This document shows positions 2,429-41,279 of a stretch of DNA of 55,405 nt, piece after piece. Origin of the DNA: Candidatus Liptonbacteria bacterium (GTDB lineage: Bacteria > Patescibacteriota > Minisyncoccia > UBA6257 > JACOXY01); the NCBI GenBank assembly GCA_016182095.1, contig JACOXY010000013.1:1-55405 (forward strand), in the 5' to 3' direction. Position numbers and translations under genes: made by a program. Positions within the stretch are counted from its first letter, which is position 1; each line of letters opens with the position of its first letter. Under the pieces are notes generated by a model. It worked only from the letters and a program-made list of their open reading frames with translations, was not told the DNA's origin and made no database searches.

Positions 2429-2456
2429 TTTATACTCAAAAATTACGCATTGTCAA
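2429..2456 (-). promoter_or_regulatory. Promoter of the 1938-2387 gene
   Basis: Minus strand TTGACA, 16 nt, TATAAA; the stretch TTTTTGAGTATAAATA recurs at the 4672-4700 promoter. Confidence 0.75.
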
Positions 2457-2898
2457 TTGTTGCCCTAATGCGCCTAGTTCCCGCCCCCACAGCTTCTTCT
2501 TTCAAAATACGAAAGTGTCCTATCTCCCCAGTGTGGGTCACGTGAGGGCCGCCGCAAAATTCTTTGCTATAAGCGTCTTCAATCGTTTTGCCGACATAAT
2601 ATACATTCACCATGTCGGGATATTTCTCCCTAAAGTAATACAGAGCGCCGGTTTTTTCGGCTTCGGCTTTAGGCATTACTGCTTTTTGCACCGGCAAATC
2701 TTTTGCAACTATAGAATTCACTTCGTCCTCAACTTTCTTAATTTCTTCGGGTGTGAGCTTGCGAGGAAATGTAAAATCAAAACGGGTACGCTCGGCCGTA
2801 ATGTCCGATCCCGCCTGATGAACATCGTTCCCCAAAATATTCCGCATGGCCTGCTGAAGCAGATGGGTCGCGGTGTGAAGCCGTGACCGCACCTGCAT
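2443..2898 (-). CDS. Detached second copy of the AlaRS editing domain (AlaX-like)
   Basis: From RLHTATHL (2883) to the stop it matches the last 143 residues of the AlaRS encoded at 4753-6594, roughly four residues in five identical by eye. It covers the post-transfer editing domain that hydrolyses mischarged Ser-tRNA(Ala) or Gly-tRNA(Ala). Metal-site residues are kept (HTATH and CGGPH). The catalytic half of AlaRS is absent, and homology stops abruptly at 2883. An in-frame ATG at 2898 (MQVRS) lies 14 nt after TGCTACAAT, so it could be made as a free-standing AlaX-like protein. It may instead be a remnant left when modules entered the alaS 3' end; the intact frame and catalytic residues argue against long decay. 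Confidence 0.7.
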   Translation of the reverse strand: MQVRSRLHTATHLLQQAMRNILGNDVHQAGSDITAERTRFDFTFPRKLTPEEIKKVEDEVNSIVAKDLPVQKAVMPKAEAEKTGALYYFREKYPDMVNVYYVGKTIEDAYSKEFCGGPHVTHTGEIGHFRILKEEAVGAGTRRIRATIDNA

Positions 2899-2942
2899 TA
2901 GCAGACAAAAGCATTGTAGCAAAGGTTGGCATAAAAGAAAAT

Positions 2943-4752: not shown

Positions 4753-6594
4753 TTAATCTACTGAAGCGCGGATGCGGCGAACTCCCGCTCCAACGGCTTC
4801 TTCTTTCAAAATGCGAAAGCGCCCTATCTCTCTAGTGTGGGTTACATGCGGGCCCCCGCAGAATTCTTTGCTATAAGCATCTTCAATCGTTTTGCCGACA
4901 TAATATACGTTTACTGGATCAGGATATTTTTCTTTGAAAAAATACAGCGCGCCGGTTTTTTTTGCCTCCTCTATCGGCATTTCTTTGAAATGCACCGGCA
5001 TATCCCGCGCTATCACTTCATTTACTTCTGTCTCAATTTTTTTAATTTCTTCTGGGGTTAATTTTCTATGGTATGTAAAATCAAAGCGGGTGCGCTCGGC
5101 GGTAATGTCAGACCCCGCCTGATGTACTTCGTTACCCAATATATTTCTCAAGGCTTGTTGCATCAAGTGCGTCGCAGTATGTAGCCGCGTTACTTTCTTT
5201 AACTCTTCCTCATCCCCTGCTTTCAATTCACCCGTATCTAAAATAAGCCCGTGTCCACCGAATTTTTTCTCCAGTCCCGCGCGTGATTTTTCCTGATGCT
5301 TTTGGTATGCTTCATCGAATTCTTTTTCTGTCCGCTCGCTAAAACTGAACCCCCATTTCTCCATCACCATTTTCATCACCTCGAAATCAACTCCGTGCGT
5401 CTCTCTTATCCTGAATAAAATAGACCCGTCAATATCAGCCACATTATTTTTTACAACAACATTTGGTAGCAGCCTTTCAGGATCAACGCCTCCAATAAAT
5501 CGACTATAAAGTTTTTTCAAATCTGCTACGGTTCCAGTCAAAATTTTTGAGTATTTTTCTACCTCATCTTGCATAATACTCATCATTCGATCCCCGTTGT
5601 TAAGCAAATCAGGATAAAAATGCTTATATATATCAATAATTATGGAAACTGGATTCTGAAAAAAATTTTTGTCAGGTCCGGCGCCCACATCAAGATAGTG
5701 GGCCGTGAGAGCTCTCCTTAATAAGCGCCTGGGGATATAACCTCGTCCCTCTTTACCAGGCAAAACACCATCACTGATCAAAAAAACTGCCGCGCGAAGA
5801 TGATCAACGATCAACCTAATTTGACCTATGGGTTTATCTCCTTGAATTTCAATTATCGAATGCATTATTGGCTGCAACAAATCCGTCTCAAAAATATTAT
5901 TCTTCTCCTGCGAAACCATAACCAGACGTTCCAGTCCCATGCCCGTGTCAACACCCGGGGTCTTTAATTTTTCTAATTTTCCGTTTTTACAATAATATTC
6001 ATTAAAGACAATGTTCCAAATTTCAACGCCGTTTATATAAATTTCTGTGGTCGGGCCGCACGGGCCTTCGTTCCCGGTCGGGCCCCAAAAATTGTCTGTT
6101 CTGCCAAATTTTTTTATGCTTTTTACTCCCAGCGATTTCCAAATCTCTTCGGATTCAGTATCAGCAGGAACTCCATCACCACCTTCAAAAACGCTTACAT
6201 AATCTATCGCAAGCCCCATTTCTTTGGTAATAAAATCATGCGCATAGGTTATCGCCCCTTTTTTGAAATATCCGCCCTTGGGCGAAACTGGCTCGCCGGG
6301 CTTATAGCCAAACGAAAAATTCCCTAGCATTTCAAAAAAAGTAAGGTGTGACTCATCCCCCACCTCGTCAATGTCGGAAGTGCGGAATGACTTTTGAATA
6401 GAAGCGGTGTTTTTGCTTCCAAAATCCTTCATTGGGTCAGCTTCGCCCGTGTAATACTTCTTAAACTGCTGCATCCCAGCGGTCGTTAAAAGCACCGACG
6501 GGTCGTCAGGAATAAGTGATGACGAAGACACGATAGTATGTCCGCGTTCTTTGAAAAAGGCGAGAAACTTTTTACGGATTTCTTCTGAAGACAT
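4753..6594 (-). CDS. alaS: Alanine--tRNA ligase, short form
   Basis: Charges tRNA(Ala) in the cytosol. Class II catalytic core at about residues 1-245 (TTAGMQQFKKYYTG, SFRTSDIDEVGDESH, FFEMLGNFSFG), tRNA-recognition helices to about 460 (PGKEGRGYIPRRLLRR), and editing domain 471-613 with HTATH and CGGPH. At 613 aa it lacks the C-terminal oligomerisation/C-Ala region of standard AlaRS (about 875 aa), as is common in CPR bacteria. The start has a weak TTAAGT box 7 nt upstream and no Shine-Dalgarno site. A GC-rich hairpin between 4708 and 4753 may end the transcript. Its 3' third is duplicated at 2443-2883, with two orphan genes in between. Confidence 0.95.
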   Translation of the reverse strand: MSSEEIRKKFLAFFKERGHTIVSSSSLIPDDPSVLLTTAGMQQFKKYYTGEADPMKDFGSKNTASIQKSFRTSDIDEVGDESHLTFFEMLGNFSFGYKPGEPVSPKGGYFKKGAITYAHDFITKEMGLAIDYVSVFEGGDGVPADTESEEIWKSLGVKSIKKFGRTDNFWGPTGNEGPCGPTTEIYINGVEIWNIVFNEYYCKNGKLEKLKTPGVDTGMGLERLVMVSQEKNNIFETDLLQPIMHSIIEIQGDKPIGQIRLIVDHLRAAVFLISDGVLPGKEGRGYIPRRLLRRALTAHYLDVGAGPDKNFFQNPVSIIIDIYKHFYPDLLNNGDRMMSIMQDEVEKYSKILTGTVADLKKLYSRFIGGVDPERLLPNVVVKNNVADIDGSILFRIRETHGVDFEVMKMVMEKWGFSFSERTEKEFDEAYQKHQEKSRAGLEKKFGGHGLILDTGELKAGDEEELKKVTRLHTATHLMQQALRNILGNEVHQAGSDITAERTRFDFTYHRKLTPEEIKKIETEVNEVIARDMPVHFKEMPIEEAKKTGALYFFKEKYPDPVNVYYVGKTIEDAYSKEFCGGPHVTHTREIGRFRILKEEAVGAGVRRIRASVD

Positions 6595-28435: not shown

Positions 28436-31400
28436 TTATTCTTCAAGCCCCACCCGCATAAACCAATCGGCGCTCGCGGTAGGATAGGGAATTCTAAAAG
28501 ACGGGCAATAACTGCCGTTGCATTCGCCTGATGGGCCAGAGGCAGCCACACCATCCTCAAAATCTCCGGCAGTTGAGATTGCGTTCTGGAAAGAGGTCCG
28601 GTAATAACCGACTGGATTGTCATAGCGCGCGTCAAGCACAAACCAATAAGTTTGATTGGCTTCGACTGTTACCGGATCGGCAAAATAAAACACACTGTTT
28701 CCGGATTCCGTCTCGGCAATTTTGTTTGAAAAATCCGGCTTATTTGCTCCATTATCATCATAAACAGCGAGTCTATAAGAGGCGTCATCACCTCCGTTGT
28801 TCCGCTGTATATCAAGCAAAACTTTATTAAAACTTCCCTCTTCTCCTGAAGATATACTCTGTAAACTCGCCGAGTCAATCAGTCCCCCGCCGCACACCGA
28901 ACAATTAATATTAATCCTGCCCCAAGGATAACTCCAGCCGTCTTGATTCAACTGCTCTATTAAAAATCGGATTGGCGGGCGAGACCATTCTTTAGTTAGT
29001 ATATTGGAATAATTTCCAAAATCATCCCTAGCCCTTACGCCTATCAAAAATCGTTCGCCAGGTAAAACTACTCTGCTCGTCGTGGTAGCATGCCCCAAGT
29101 TTTGCCAATCTTGATCTAAAAAATCAGCGTGAGCCGAGTTTGACTCGGAGGAGGTGGAAAAATTAACTTCATATTTGACAAGGTTCGGCTCTGTATCTGG
29201 GTCTTGCGCATCGCTCCAATTAAGATTGATGCTTCCGGATTTAGCATATTCCACATTAATCTCTCCGCTTAATTCGGGTGCCAAGTGTTCCGGCGGATTG
29301 CCGTTAAAAAAATATTTGGTTTTATCAACCGTGAGCAGTTTGAAATTATTAAGTGCCCCGTCCTCAACCCTCGTCCCCTGCGGATAGCTTCTGTAAAAAC
29401 CGTAATAGGCAACAGTGAGATATCCATCCGCCCCAAAATCAGCATCACCATAATTACCTATCCTGAAAATGAGTCGGTTTAGAGTACCGGCCAAATATTT
29501 ACCGAACCGCAGCGCGTCGTTCATAAATCCTCCCCAAATGCCGCACTGGCTTTCGTCGTCAGGCAAAAGCAGAGAAGACTTGTAGCTTAAGATGCCAACA
29601 CAGCTCTCATATTCCGTAAAAAGCGCGTCGCTTAAATTTTCGGGTGTGGGACGCGCGCTATCTAAGAATTCATCTTTCGGCGCTTCTTTGTTTTTGTAGA
29701 AAACTAGAACTTTCCAATTAGCTCCGTGATCCCGCGAAGTTAAGTCGGGCAAAAACGGGTAATTATTATATCGTAATTCAACTACCGGCGCATTGCCAAA
29801 AATTGAGCTTGTCGGGGCCTGATAAAAATAAATTCCCGATAAAATTCCCGGCACTTCAAAATCTTTGAAAACTTCGTCGCTCGCAAGTCCGTCTTTATCT
29901 GCCGCTTGAATTGAAAATCTATAGCCTCGTCCAACTTCGTCAATCCGTCTTTCAAAAGCAGTTGAGGTGCCGTTATATATAGAAACGCCAGAGCTATTAT
30001 ATTCTTTAACTTCGTAAGTAAAATAGTTAGCTACTGAACTAGATTCAATAGTTCCCGAGCTTGTCGAGGGACTACCACGCCAATTAAAAATCAGCGCGAG
30101 AGAGCTCGTGCTGAAGCTAACTTCCAAATCATTTACGGCGGCCGGGGCATCGCGCGGCTCCGGCAAACTCGTGCTATTTTGCGGTTTGGGAATTTCGCGC
30201 GCTTCAAAATCATTGTTGGAGTCGGCGTCGCATCCATTCCCCAAAAACTCGTTTTCATTTTGCGGCAAAACACAGGAACTGTTTTTGAAAGCTTTGCGCT
30301 CCAAGCTCTTGCCAGCTTCAATTTCGCCATATGTTATGTCATCAACTACTTCCGCAGTCGCGTGATCGCCGTTGTAAAGCAAAATTGAGTTATTGGTGTA
30401 AGCGATACTCGCCGATTGGGCGGAGTATCTTAAATCCGGCTCCACGTTCCCATTATAAGAAGGACTTGCGATTAGAAAAAATCTTTTGGGGAGAATCGTT
30501 CCGGCGAAAACTCCGTCATCCACAAGGTTGCTCTCACTGCCCGAAGAAGTTTTTTTGCGTAGCTCCCATCCGGTTAAATCAACGGCTGTTTCGGTTGGAT
30601 TATAAAGTTCAATAAACTCATAATCGGAAGCGTTAGTGGCGCCAGCTTGAATTTCGCTTATTACAATATGATTCGTTGTCATATTTGTCGTATCAGACAT
30701 ATTAGACGTATCCGTCGCGCTGGAAGCATTGGCAGTATTGTCATCTGCTTGAGTTGAAGAAGGTGGCGGTGAAGCCGACGCGCCGCCACCGGACCCGCCA
30801 GAAGGATAAGTTGAGTTTTCCGCCTTGGGAGTGCCGTTCGTGACCGAACTCGACTGCCATCCAAAACCATAAATACGCTCCATGGTATTTTTGGTGGAAT
30901 TATTTCCGGCAGGCCAACTGCTTGCGGCAATAACCTCATCCATTAAGCCGCATTTATTGTCAAAAAGGCGAAGACCCTCGCCAGTATTCGCGAGCGCGCC
31001 GCTATAAATGAAGTCAGCAGCAATACCAGGCACCGTGTCATCGTCGGCGCGCTCCAAAAGCAAAAACTTGCCGGCTTCGAGCTTAGTGCCAGAATCAATA
31101 GTGATATGAATTTGTTCCTCCTTATCTATAACTTGCCAGCCGGAAGCATCGACCGGGGTACCGCTTATGTTTTTCAATTCAATCCATTCGTCATTCGCGC
31201 TATTTGTCGTACCCATCCAGGCAACTTCATTTATAATAATCCCCGCGCGGCTTGGAGTGCCGGGGACGCCATATGAGCAAGTTGAAGTCCGATCTCCCGG
31301 AGGTAGTTCCTCCGCTGGAGGTGTGACCTCCCCATATTGGCTCTCCTCGTCAGACGCTCCAGCCACTTCTCCGGTTTGCGTTTTAGGAAGAATAGTAACA

Positions 31401-32632
31401 GAAACTGAAGTTCCTAATTCCTCATAATCATTAGACGTATCAGATACGTCATTATTTAATGGAATAACTTCTATTAGATTCGCGGATTCTGTCACCGAAC
31501 CGCCTCCATTATCGCCAAACAACGAATCCCACCAACCGATTACAGCATCAATTGTATTTGCAAAAAATGATTTTTCCGCCTCATTATTATAGCGGCCATC
31601 TTTCTCGGCCGCGGCAACTTCTTTAAAAAACAGATCAATTAAGCCGGCACCGTGCCGAACTGCGCTGGTTGAGAGGAGGGACCAGTAGTTTTTTAGAACA
31701 AGACTATCGGGATCTGATAAGGTTATGTCAGAACGAAGCACCGTAACCAAATCACCGTATCTTGCATACATAAAGAGCAGCTGCGTATTTCCTTCTTCAT
31801 CTTCTTTAACAGCAAAAACTCGGCCACTAATTTTTGTCGGAGAGTTTGAGCTCGGAATAGGCAATTCGTACCCGCTTGATACCCCAATTCTATTTTGGCT
31901 ATAAAAATTATTATTTGAGTACTTCGCCATCACGTTGAAATAATTATCAACGCTATCCTGAACAATCGGCGCCATCCCTGTTAAGCGTGTTTTTAATTCT
32001 TTGTCGGGACTTTCCAAACCAAAAGCTCCGGCGAAATTTTCATATGGGCTCCTATCCCATTCGCTCCCAGGATGGGGATCATTTCGGGTGTGATCGGGAA
32101 CTGATGCGTCCTCTAATAAGTGCAGGACGTGGCCCAAGATAAACATGGCTTTTTCTTTGTCGCCTCGCGCGTAGTACTCCACTGCCCTCTCCCAGGTAAA
32201 GTCCGACTCGGTGGTTAGCGCTCCCAACTGTTTTTCCTGCCAGGCGGTTAAAATAGAAGTTATAAAAGCATAAGCCTTATAGCGAGTCTCTGTTTGCTTC
32301 TCTGCATCCTCGGCCCACTCTTTTGACCTATAGCCATCTCCATAAATAGATGTGAGCCCGGTGTCGTTAATAGGATCATAAAAATGATTAAGCCACCTTG
32401 GCGCGTCATCCTCGCGCCTTGAGCCGTCAATCAAGAATGGTTTTAAGTTTTCCGAAATTTTATTATTCTGATAGCGCTCGTTATAAAAATCAAAAATTTC
32501 CGAGGTTAAGTAGGCGTGCGTCCCAACTCCATACGCCAGCGCCTCGTTTGCACTTACAAAAGCTCCGACAGTAATCGGAGCAATAAACAGAGCAAAAAGT
32601 GATATTTTATTTCTTGCACCAAGGCGCTTCAT
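28436..32632 (-). CDS. Large exported protein: zinc phospholipase C-like domain, two lamin-tail domains and beta modules (1398 aa)
   Basis: Signal peptide with cleavage after EALA. Residues 34-240 resemble zinc-dependent phospholipase C/S1-P1 nuclease: GTHAYLT, LNHFYDP, GHVLHLLEDASVPDHTRND and SPYENFAG give the His/Asp/Glu metal ligands. Two lamin-tail (LTD) domains follow (about 465-600, starting IIINEVAWMG, and about 650-790, starting HIVISEIQAG), then fibronectin-like modules and a C-terminal beta domain with SGEEGSFNKVLLDIQRN. Ser/Thr-rich linkers join them. No sortase or membrane anchor is seen at the C-terminus. A role in attacking or binding host-cell surfaces is an inference. No Shine-Dalgarno site; a TATAAC box is 14 nt upstream of ATG. 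Confidence 0.8.
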   Translation of the reverse strand: MKRLGARNKISLFALFIAPITVGAFVSANEALAYGVGTHAYLTSEIFDFYNERYQNNKISENLKPFLIDGSRREDDAPRWLNHFYDPINDTGLTSIYGDGYRSKEWAEDAEKQTETRYKAYAFITSILTAWQEKQLGALTTESDFTWERAVEYYARGDKEKAMFILGHVLHLLEDASVPDHTRNDPHPGSEWDRSPYENFAGAFGLESPDKELKTRLTGMAPIVQDSVDNYFNVMAKYSNNNFYSQNRIGVSSGYELPIPSSNSPTKISGRVFAVKEDEEGNTQLLFMYARYGDLVTVLRSDITLSDPDSLVLKNYWSLLSTSAVRHGAGLIDLFFKEVAAAEKDGRYNNEAEKSFFANTIDAVIGWWDSLFGDNGGGSVTESANLIEVIPLNNDVSDTSNDYEELGTSVSVTILPKTQTGEVAGASDEESQYGEVTPPAEELPPGDRTSTCSYGVPGTPSRAGIIINEVAWMGTTNSANDEWIELKNISGTPVDASGWQVIDKEEQIHITIDSGTKLEAGKFLLLERADDDTVPGIAADFIYSGALANTGEGLRLFDNKCGLMDEVIAASSWPAGNNSTKNTMERIYGFGWQSSSVTNGTPKAENSTYPSGGSGGGASASPPPSSTQADDNTANASSATDTSNMSDTTNMTTNHIVISEIQAGATNASDYEFIELYNPTETAVDLTGWELRKKTSSGSESNLVDDGVFAGTILPKRFFLIASPSYNGNVEPDLRYSAQSASIAYTNNSILLYNGDHATAEVVDDITYGEIEAGKSLERKAFKNSSCVLPQNENEFLGNGCDADSNNDFEAREIPKPQNSTSLPEPRDAPAAVNDLEVSFSTSSLALIFNWRGSPSTSSGTIESSSVANYFTYEVKEYNSSGVSIYNGTSTAFERRIDEVGRGYRFSIQAADKDGLASDEVFKDFEVPGILSGIYFYQAPTSSIFGNAPVVELRYNNYPFLPDLTSRDHGANWKVLVFYKNKEAPKDEFLDSARPTPENLSDALFTEYESCVGILSYKSSLLLPDDESQCGIWGGFMNDALRFGKYLAGTLNRLIFRIGNYGDADFGADGYLTVAYYGFYRSYPQGTRVEDGALNNFKLLTVDKTKYFFNGNPPEHLAPELSGEINVEYAKSGSINLNWSDAQDPDTEPNLVKYEVNFSTSSESNSAHADFLDQDWQNLGHATTTSRVVLPGERFLIGVRARDDFGNYSNILTKEWSRPPIRFLIEQLNQDGWSYPWGRININCSVCGGGLIDSASLQSISSGEEGSFNKVLLDIQRNNGGDDASYRLAVYDDNGANKPDFSNKIAETESGNSVFYFADPVTVEANQTYWFVLDARYDNPVGYYRTSFQNAISTAGDFEDGVAASGPSGECNGSYCPSFRIPYPTASADWFMRVGLEE

Positions 32633-38553: not shown

Positions 38554-40284
38554 TTATTGTCCCGCCAAAAGGGTAATGCTAAAAACCGATTCATCTTTTC
38601 TGACGTTGAGTGACCCACCCGAATCTTGGCGCGCCCAGACTTCAATATAATCATTCGCCGCAAGCCTTAATCGGGAGCACTCATGCAAAATAGTGGGCTC
38701 CTGGCCAGACGATACTGAATTTATCTGCGTCGTAGTTGCCGATCCGCCGTTAATATAAAATATAATTCGGCGCGCGTCGGTACTATTCGTGGCAAAACTA
38801 ACATTAGCGCAGACAAGATAGAGCCCCCCCGCGGGAATGGTGAAACGACTATTATTGGTAACGCTATCATGTAACCCGCCAAAGTCTTCGGTTTCGGTAT
38901 CCCAAGTAAGCGCGGTCCAGGTAGCGTTCGTTACTGATTGGTTGGAGCTTTTTTTAACTTCTGCCGTTCTTTGGGCTGCAGCGGATGTCGCCTGCCAGCT
39001 CGCGTTCCCACTCGCGTCAGAAGTTAAAACATAGCCGTTAGAAGCGCCGGTAGGAAGTTTGAACCCATTCACCGTTGCCGTTCCAAACACCTGTAACAAA
39101 GAAGACGGGGTTGTAGTTCCGATACCGACATTACCATTTTCATCAATCCTTATTCTGCTTGCCAAACCACTGCCATCTATTTTGGTGGCAAAATCAAGCG
39201 ATCCTCCCCAATTACCATTGGTAACCCCTTCAGTAAACGATCTTATGTTGGCTATTCTTACTCCATTAGTTCCCAATATGTTAGCCGCGGCGCTAAATGC
39301 AACGTCGGCCTGAATCACTCCGTCTCCTCCGGCCGCGTTTCCTGTAACTTCCAATACCACATTGCTATTGCTATTTCCGTAAACATTCAATTTCGTGTTA
39401 ATGACATTAGGATCAATATTTAAAGTTCCAATACCAACTTTTCCGGTATTATAATAAATATTATTGCCATTCGCCCCCCACTGGTCCCCCAGATTCCTCC
39501 AGGAACCGCTTGCATATTCCCTGAAAACGCTGCTTGCGGTGTTGTAATAAATTGACCCGTTTTGTCCTTCAACGGGATCCGCGGATAATTGCCCAACATT
39601 TAAAAGATTAGATATGTTGATATTTTTCCAGCGTGAAGGAGAAGAGAGACCGACGCTATAAATATTATCCTGTCCCGGGATTATGTCCGAATCAAAAACT
39701 GCCGCGGAGACGCGTGCTATAGTTGTCCCAAAAGATTTTGAAAAGGCGTACTTTGGATTATCCGAGTTAAAAGACAGCGTAAAATCAACCTGAACGGCAT
39801 TCTTGGCCAGCGAATTGTAAATGCGGCGGAAAACAAGCGAGCCCGCATCAACAGTAACATTTTCATTGGTAAGCCGGTTCGTTGTGGTGGATATAGTATA
39901 AATGCCAGAGCCAGGCGGCGGGGCCTCGACTGTTGTGCCTTCATCCATCCAAATAGCAGTGCCGGAAGCGTAAAAAGCCACATAGTCGCGGTTAGAATCT
40001 TTATGCCTAATAACAAGCACCGCAATCGGGGTATTGGTCGCTATATCTATAAGACTTGAATCTCTTACCTCTCTTTGGATCATTTGCAAAACAAACCTTC
40101 CTTGTTCGGAAACCTCCCTCGCGGAAGTGCCGCTATTTTGAATTCTTAAAATGGCAAACAGAATGCCGACAATGGAGCCGATTACAATGGCAAAAATGGC
40201 CACATATAAAATCATCTCTAGAAGGGTGGCGCCTTTTTGTTTCTGCGAAATACTTGGAATCTGATATCCGGCATCTGGCATCAT
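38554..40284 (-). CDS. Prepilin-like protein with phage tail-fibre-like and C1q-like C-terminus (576 aa)
   Basis: Start MMPDAGYQ chosen because TGTTATAAT ends 6 nt before it (core format). A type IV prepilin signal QKQKG|ATLLEMILYVAIFAI is near residue 20, with the helix continuing to about 50, as in PilW/GspJ pseudopilins. After residue 250 it changes to tail-fibre-like repeats: KVGIGTLNIDPNVINTKL, NVGIGTTTPSSLLQV and SNGYVLTSDASGNASWQ. The last 135 residues (RTAEVKKSSNQSV ... GGLYLVCANVSF ... LRLAANDYIEVWARQ) look like a C1q/TNF jelly roll. This would put an adhesive tip on a pilus-like filament; that role is inferred. Confidence 0.82.
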   Translation of the reverse strand: MMPDAGYQIPSISQKQKGATLLEMILYVAIFAIVIGSIVGILFAILRIQNSGTSAREVSEQGRFVLQMIQREVRDSSLIDIATNTPIAVLVIRHKDSNRDYVAFYASGTAIWMDEGTTVEAPPPGSGIYTISTTTNRLTNENVTVDAGSLVFRRIYNSLAKNAVQVDFTLSFNSDNPKYAFSKSFGTTIARVSAAVFDSDIIPGQDNIYSVGLSSPSRWKNINISNLLNVGQLSADPVEGQNGSIYYNTASSVFREYASGSWRNLGDQWGANGNNIYYNTGKVGIGTLNIDPNVINTKLNVYGNSNSNVVLEVTGNAAGGDGVIQADVAFSAAANILGTNGVRIANIRSFTEGVTNGNWGGSLDFATKIDGSGLASRIRIDENGNVGIGTTTPSSLLQVFGTATVNGFKLPTGASNGYVLTSDASGNASWQATSAAAQRTAEVKKSSNQSVTNATWTALTWDTETEDFGGLHDSVTNNSRFTIPAGGLYLVCANVSFATNSTDARRIIFYINGGSATTTQINSVSSGQEPTILHECSRLRLAANDYIEVWARQDSGGSLNVRKDESVFSITLLAGQ

Positions 40285-40365
40285 AGATTTATTATAACAC
40301 AAACTAAACAAAATCATTGCCAAATGTGGAAAAATGAGGTAAATTATGTAAAACTAATTACAGAT

Positions 40366-40664: not shown

Positions 40665-41279
40665 ATGAAATACTTTTTATTGTTTGTCGTTTTCGCAGCC
40701 GCGGCTTTTGGAGGAGTCTGGGCATATAATAATTTCAGTGATGATTCTCTGGCAACCCCAGGAGCTCCAGCGCCAGGGACACCCCCCACAGCACCCACAA
40801 CGCCCACAACGCCACCGGGCGGGGGAACTCAAATTGCCGCCACGGGTTGTTACAATTATGGCACAAAACTAGACGCGCCTGTTAAGTGCCCCTATAACAC
40901 GCCCTCATGCACCTCTGCTGGTGGCTGTGTGACACAGTGCGGATCCTGCTCATATAATATCTGTGAAGCGCCAAGCGGCGGCCCGCTTAAGAAATGGTTC
41001 CCAACTCCCTGCGACACCACGCCAAGCCCATTCTTTGGACACATAAAATCAGATTCGGAATTCCAGAGTTGTCTTGCGAGCACCTTTGGACAGCCAGCCG
41101 TGGACGACTGGGTTCTTGGGAAAATTGTAGTATGGCCGGCAGACGCTCTCACCCCAAAGGATAATCTAATCACCAAGGATTTTACTACATGTTACGACGG
41201 ATACTATAAGCGATTTTGCGCGAAATTGAGCCCGCAAGTGAGGACGAGTACATATAAGAGCTTGTGCGATAAGTATTAA
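40665..41279 (+). CDS. Cys-rich secreted or membrane-anchored orphan protein (204 aa)
   Basis: N-terminal helix (residues 2-18) followed by a Pro/Thr linker (about 28-52) and a domain with twelve Cys (CPYNTPSC, GGCVTQCGSCSYNIC, then six more to SLCDKY at the C-terminus). This pattern suggests several disulfides, so export to an oxidising outside is likely. Family unknown. Core format: TGTGTTATAAT ends 8 nt before ATG. Confidence 0.7.
   Translation: MKYFLLFVVFAAAAFGGVWAYNNFSDDSLATPGAPAPGTPPTAPTTPTTPPGGGTQIAATGCYNYGTKLDAPVKCPYNTPSCTSAGGCVTQCGSCSYNICEAPSGGPLKKWFPTPCDTTPSPFFGHIKSDSEFQSCLASTFGQPAVDDWVLGKIVVWPADALTPKDNLITKDFTTCYDGYYKRFCAKLSPQVRTSTYKSLCDKY

Follow-up and report, generated by a model that had tools for sequence, protein, structure and literature searches.

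A candidate pilus-borne receptor binder joining a type IV pilin to a phage-like fibre with exchangeable tips in Patescibacteria

The gene and its setting

The window, 55,405 nucleotides of a contig from a Candidatus Liptonbacteria bacterium, carries on its minus strand, at 38554..40284, a gene whose translation is a protein of 576 amino acids, starting from the ATG at 40284 and with the stop codon ending at 38554. The plus strand over the same interval has many stop codons, and the sole open frame there is that of the minus strand, 40284-38557 plus the stop. From N to C terminus the product is made up of a prepilin leader, a type IV pilin domain, a conserved junction, a tail-fibre-like stem and a jelly-roll tip. 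The gene is flanked by recG and by a gene for a 204-amino acid protein with tRNA-Glu upstream; the latter neighbour, at 40665-41279, is on the opposite strand and its product is without a known domain. No phage genes were seen nearby, the neighbours being housekeeping genes such as recG, mutM, tsaD and valS, no companion gene was seen beside this copy, and the gene is located outside the pilus operons of its genome. A putative extended -10 promoter-like element (40291..40298, minus strand), within a perfect TGTTATAAT read from the sequence at 40291-40299, ends seven bases before the ATG. It was missed by a consensus scan because there is no -35 in register, and its closeness to the initiator is such that the mRNA may be leaderless.

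Elsewhere in the window a second, partial alanyl-tRNA synthetase-like frame with a tRNA_SAD domain (2443-2922, minus strand) is close to the long gene for AlaRS (4753-6594). The product of 28436-32632 on the minus strand, 1,398 amino acids long, begins like a secreted protein with a signal peptide and contains two Lamin Tail Domains; its N-terminal part resembles, by eye only, a zinc-dependent phospholipase C.

Pilin part and junction

The prepilin site that a sequence-only reading of this DNA had placed at the N terminus is borne out. The leader, residues 1-18 (40231..40284, minus strand), has a predicted peptidase cut after Gly18, MMPDAGYQIPSISQKQKG/ATLLEM (KG/ATLLEM, residues 17-24, the slash marking the cut), with the Gly at -1 and Glu at +5 of a class III leader, and Pfam N_methyl matches it with E 3.7e-4 and 20.4 bits, slightly below the cut-off of 21.2. 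Among 59 homologues Gly18 is nearly invariant and Glu23 invariant, and the Glu at +5 is kept in all 91 members in which a prepilin motif was located (92 were compared). Residue +1 is Ala in the source gene versus Phe in 87 of these 91.

The mature pilin domain, residues 19-194 (39703..40230, minus strand), combines a long alpha-1 helix (21-75) with a beta-sheet. In the AF2 model, built with 37 sequences, residues 21-194 form a pilin whose alpha-1 helix has 55 residues, the pLDDT being mostly above 90, and the best VIA-align match of this part is the Thermus pilin TTHA1219 (5g24; Z 11.1 over 131 residues), which is a component of a DNA-uptake pilus. Conservation in the family covers the entire pilin globular domain, beyond the helix alone. 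The long alpha-1 helix and the beta-sheet head are accompanied by an extra C-terminal domain that is not specific to pilus biology, and so by its sequence and modelled fold the protein is a modular pilin.

Between pilin and fibre, family alignments define a conserved junction, residues 195-222, AVFDSDIIPGQDNIYSVGLSSPSRWKNI (39619..39702, minus strand). Five residues are invariant across 59 N-terminal regions, E23, F197, P203, G212 and W219, the last four of them in the junction. A weak match of the junction to a phage tail spike has E 0.024, and a possible phage origin of the junction would depend on this match only, because no phage match was returned when the junction and the first module of the stem were searched by themselves.

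Stem and jelly-roll tip

The stem, residues 223-401 (39082..39618, minus strand), has two GxVGIGT repeats, with VGIGT at 281-292 (39444-39409) and 384-401 (39135-39082), so that the tail-fibre-type repeats claimed earlier are indeed present. Residues 286-447 are matched by the PHROGs tail fibre family phrog_18345 (E 3.8e-6), and the top match in a sequence search of solved structures, over residues 353-452, is Bd2133, a MAT fibre of Bdellovibrio (E 4e-6). Repeats of the GxVGIGT type are present in 54 of 92 family members versus 0.02 per shuffled sequence, and so are not due to chance. As the AF2 monomer model is not confident for the region from about 280 to 470, the term fibre is used for it on the grounds of sequence similarity.

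The tip, residues 438-576 (38557..38973, minus strand), is modelled as a jelly roll of the C1q/TNF type. Modelled with phage relatives, residues 403-576 have a pLDDT of 82, and residues 431-567 match phrog_13989, a virion structural protein, with E 3.4e-15. Foldseek gives the tip model a TM of 0.84 on the target C1QL2, and in VIA-align it superimposes on the knob/petal part of the central spike of phage phi812 (9eul) with Z 20.6, rmsd 1.4 Å and 24% identity over 134 residues. The best 50 VIA-align matches have Z of 15.6-20.6 and are mostly C1q/TNF chains (Z 15.6-19.1), with the C1q domain of Caprin-2 at Z 19.1. The phi812 spike likewise comes first when solved structures are searched with a profile (E 0.003); the phi812 domain has the same jelly-roll fold as the source tip but is in a virion and not in a pilin. 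Outside the N terminus Pfam gives weak signals only: TNF on the tip has E 0.047 and 14.1 bits versus a cut-off of 23, and C1q has no match to the source protein. Since neither model is above its cut-off, the membership of the tip in the C1q/TNF group is by fold only. C1q/TNF and phage spike folds are trimeric, as is the S74 chaperone, and many C1q-like domains are structural or trimerising and do not bind. The jelly-roll-like C terminus of the sequence-only reading is upheld by the C1QL2 and phi812 comparisons, and the expectation that the C-terminal half would model as a fibre or a jelly roll holds for the tip and is left uncertain by the monomer model for the stem.

Pilus machinery in the source genome

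The source genome, of 893 kb and 97.5% complete, encodes a single prepilin peptidase in which the two A24 domains are both present, together with a complete type IV pilus machine, and so the genome-wide peptidase partner on which the sequence-only reading depended is in place. One contig has a type IV pilus operon with PilM, PilN, PilC, two ATPases (T2SSE) and pilins (C2), and there are two further PilB/PilC/pilin clusters on C14 and C22, which contain un-fused relatives of the source pilin together with larger pilins having propeller-like C-terminal parts. The large pilins within the PilB/PilC operons of C14 and C22 are of 551 and 485 amino acids (L008 5593-7248 and L007 1011-2468), and one of them has a weak LVIVD match. 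Across the order the peptidase is found in 215 of 244 genomes, and its co-occurrence with the family is uninformative because it is so widespread.

A family with a constant pilin and varied ends

Matches to the source protein are found in 168 of the 244 genomes of the order, among them Harrison-, Colwell-, Lipton-, Wolfe-, Jorgensen- and Brennerbacteria and other Patescibacteria, mostly with one copy per genome; a single match is on a contig labelled Rokuibacteriota that is possibly mis-binned. In the 92 members with the junction motif, the pilin domain and junction are conserved and the part after the junction is from 43 to 1,813 amino acids long. In a class-wide search, the listed matches from outside the order reach no further than about model position 130-172, which is ahead of the junction or where it begins, and the greater number are in un-fused frames of about 165-250 amino acids without a junction. 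That these relatives stop where they do suggests that an ordinary minor pilin gained its fibre inside this lineage.

Several members adjoin pilM-pilN-pilO or are within pilB-pilC-pilin clusters (L045, L055, L071, L072, L083 and L100-L103), and the majority of the others, the source gene included, are in neither setting. In the 92-row alignment Pfam recognizes S74 in five members, Collar in two and Laminin-G in two, with Kelch, LVIVD, EPTP, C1q, F5/8C or glycine-rich ends in one or two each, and PHROGs gives 118 families altogether. In one genome (G190) L048 5607-8567 has an in-frame TAG between a 157-amino acid pilin part and an 823-amino acid fibre part and is either a broken gene or a split pair; two intact paralogues are present in the same genome. 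At L056 5353-9636 (G006) there are three tandem fibre genes, with a pilin part in the middle one only, the outer two having a Sec-type N terminus and no pilin part.

Replacement of tips at orthologous loci

The ends of the long forms are far more variable than the pilin part. When the last 120 residues of the 48 long forms were clustered (BLAST E 1e-5, at least 60 amino acids), 38 tip clusters resulted; a tip is shared by none of the 68 pairs whose pilins are 50-80% identical, and by 16 pairs at 30-50%. Lectin-like, collar, C1q and propeller tips all occur in the family. The orthologous loci L074 and L141 have collinear flanks, with DNA identity of 74-85% on one side and 75-78% on the other, and pilins that are 99% identical in protein; their DNA homology stops just past the first GNVGIGT repeat, the remaining 1.4 kb or so of fibre is non-alignable, and the flanks then resume. 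L051 and L053 likewise have collinear flanks and a non-alignable fibre end, and L049 and L050, paralogues within one genome, diverge near another GNVGIGT repeat. High variability of the C-terminal domain had been foreseen by the sequence-only reading, and what is found is wholesale replacement at orthologous loci. Such variability is that expected for a receptor binder, with the proviso that it is seen between species of one genus and not between strains.

Not all members fit the picture of a receptor binder, because 44 of the 92 have short C termini, many of them with small similar caps, and this points to a conserved function of the short forms other than that of a variable receptor binder. 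Their caps recur, as GxCYRxxV...CP or RGTFWV...WRTIY, for instance in L087, L090 and L132.

The C-terminal part has relatives in phages. With tblastn it has 27-35% identity to phage proteins, including tail fibre 37_2 of Klebsiella phage Eowyn and proteins of Pelagibacter and Caulobacter phages, and in viral contigs the identity among the best matches is 34-39%. One such phage gene is directly ahead of an endolysin gene (L185) and another follows a tape-measure-like gene (L187). Phage tips and full-length members were kept in two separate alignments, as in a joint one the phage tips fell on the pilin. The sharing of modules with phages may reflect either borrowing by the pilin from phages or a pool of fibre modules common to both.

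Relation to known pilins and fibres

Modular pilins, such as PilB and PilC of Streptococcus sanguinis, are known, and a tip location has been proposed for them; an InterPro survey of such architectures includes N_methyl with Peptidase S74 (PMC8179133). The arrangement here is the same, an N-terminal pilin module followed by a C-terminal functional module. The known cases have single-domain modules such as vWA or lectin, whereas the source family has a fibre stem and exchangeable tip behind an invariant junction across an order.

Closest in the stem are the MAT fibres of Bdellovibrio, in which a phage-like stem with GxVGIGT motifs bears diverse tips, TNF-like and S74-ending among them, that are subject to swapping; the TNF-like tip of the MAT Bd2439 binds prey glycans (PMC10769870). 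MATs begin with a signal peptide and a conserved beta-rich domain of about 130 amino acids (PMC10769870). The phage-like fibre stem, as in the Bd2133 match, is common to both, but the N-terminal 194 residues of the source protein are a pilin and, because the MAT N-terminal domain is absent, it is not a member of the MAT group. At its tip it probably works like a MAT fibre.

CofB and TcpB of type IVb pili are minor pilins with a beta-rich C-terminal extension that form homotrimers at the pilus tip (PMC9565799, PMC8179133). The source protein also has the character of a minor pilin with a beta-rich C-terminal extension, though theirs do not consist of phage-fibre modules and serve to dock a partner that is secreted; CofB and TcpB were not among the sequence matches to solved structures, where a missing match excludes nothing. 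In Saccharibacteria the minor pilins PilX1 and PilX2 have an extra C-terminal domain, jelly-roll-like in PilX1 and a propeller in PilX2, and in a Saccharibacterium PilX2 has a part in binding to the host (PMC12206443). Unlike the source protein they are not predicted to have PilD-type leaders, and no fibre stem has been described for them. Nearer to PilX2 are the propeller-ended pilins of C14 and C22 in the source genome, its possible counterparts. The Kil predation pilus of Myxococcus, of the Tad type, has interchangeable minor-pilin tips that expose variable prey-interacting domains (PMC12075869), but these are multi-protein tips with four sets in one genome, in contrast to one protein, mostly in one copy per genome, here. 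A search of the open literature, with closed journals and preprints outside it, found no description of a prepilin-tail-fibre fusion in these lineages.

Proposed function and alternatives

The reading that we favour, and hold to be reasonably probable, is that of a modular minor pilin that equips a pilus with a trimeric, receptor-binding fibre, the tips of which can be exchanged, for recognition of a host or surface, with the pilus location, the trimer and the ligand each being inferred. The prepilin peptidase would cleave after Gly18 and the pilin domain would be built into a type IV pilus, most likely at the pilus tip. Stem and jelly roll would together form a trimeric tail-fibre-like rod, the distal domain of which would bind a receptor, be it on a host cell or on another surface. 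The pilin part would stay constant while fibre and tip modules are exchanged at the GNVGIGT repeats just past the junction, as phages swap tail-fibre tips. Modular pilins, MAT fibres, PilX2 binding and Kil tips are the precedents for reading the protein as a pilus-borne fibre adhesin. In its favor are also the pilin motif and modelled fold, the pilus machinery of the genome, the resemblance to phage and MAT fibres, the trimeric nature of the C1q/TNF, phage spike and S74 folds, the exchange of tips and the members beside pilMNO or in pilin clusters. The position of the source gene outside a pilus operon, the short forms, the lack of a confident stem model and the structural or trimerising role of many C1q-like domains count against it. 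The sequence-only reading, a candidate pilus-borne receptor binder with phage adhesin parts, is supported, since every check it proposed that was run came out in its favor.

Were the pilin part a membrane anchor only, the fibre would project from the cytoplasmic membrane as a surface adhesin, MAT-like with another anchor, and never be in a pilus. The location of the source gene is consistent with this, as are the two Sec-type genes at L056, from which it is evident that a fibre module does not need a pilin for its display; yet conservation of the full globular domain, and the members beside pilMNO or in pilin clusters, make it unlikely. A pilus that binds DNA or another abiotic ligand, in competence or surface attachment, instead of a host receptor has in its favor the resemblance to TTHA1219 and the modular Thermus pilin ComZ, which is thought to bind DNA (PMC8179133), but wholesale exchange of unrelated tips is odd for one invariant ligand such as DNA, and this possibility is distinctly unlikely.

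It is improbable that the protein is a carrier or adaptor, priming the pilus and docking a separately secreted factor with a tip that is not itself a receptor binder. CofB and TcpB, whose trimers at the pilus tip are docking sites for secreted partners (PMC9565799, PMC8179133), and the companion Sec-type fibre proteins at L056 would accord with such a role, but the source copy has no companion beside it, only the domainless 204-amino acid neighbor on the other strand. The presence of phage-like modules could also bring to mind a prophage remnant, or an assembly artefact, in which pilin and phage gene were fused by accident. Recurrence of the fusion, with its invariant junction, in most genomes of the order and the housekeeping neighbourhood make this extremely improbable, and it was rejected.

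What is new here is a family in which a pilin is fused to a swappable phage-like fibre, modular pilins as such being already known. Little is known about the choice of hosts by Patescibacteria, and the source family is a strong candidate for the part that recognizes the host cell or attachment surface. More tentatively, host recognition may be organized order-wide in this way, with one minor pilin per genome as a socket and swappable tips, turned over by exchange of modules at GNVGIGT repeats and perhaps from a pool shared with phages, setting the host range of the episymbionts. If the favored reading is true, a single recognizable gene per genome, its pilus socket constant and its tip exchangeable, would make it possible to predict host specificity from the genomes of uncultured lineages and to test it, and pili, predatory surface fibres and phages would share one set of receptor-binding modules.
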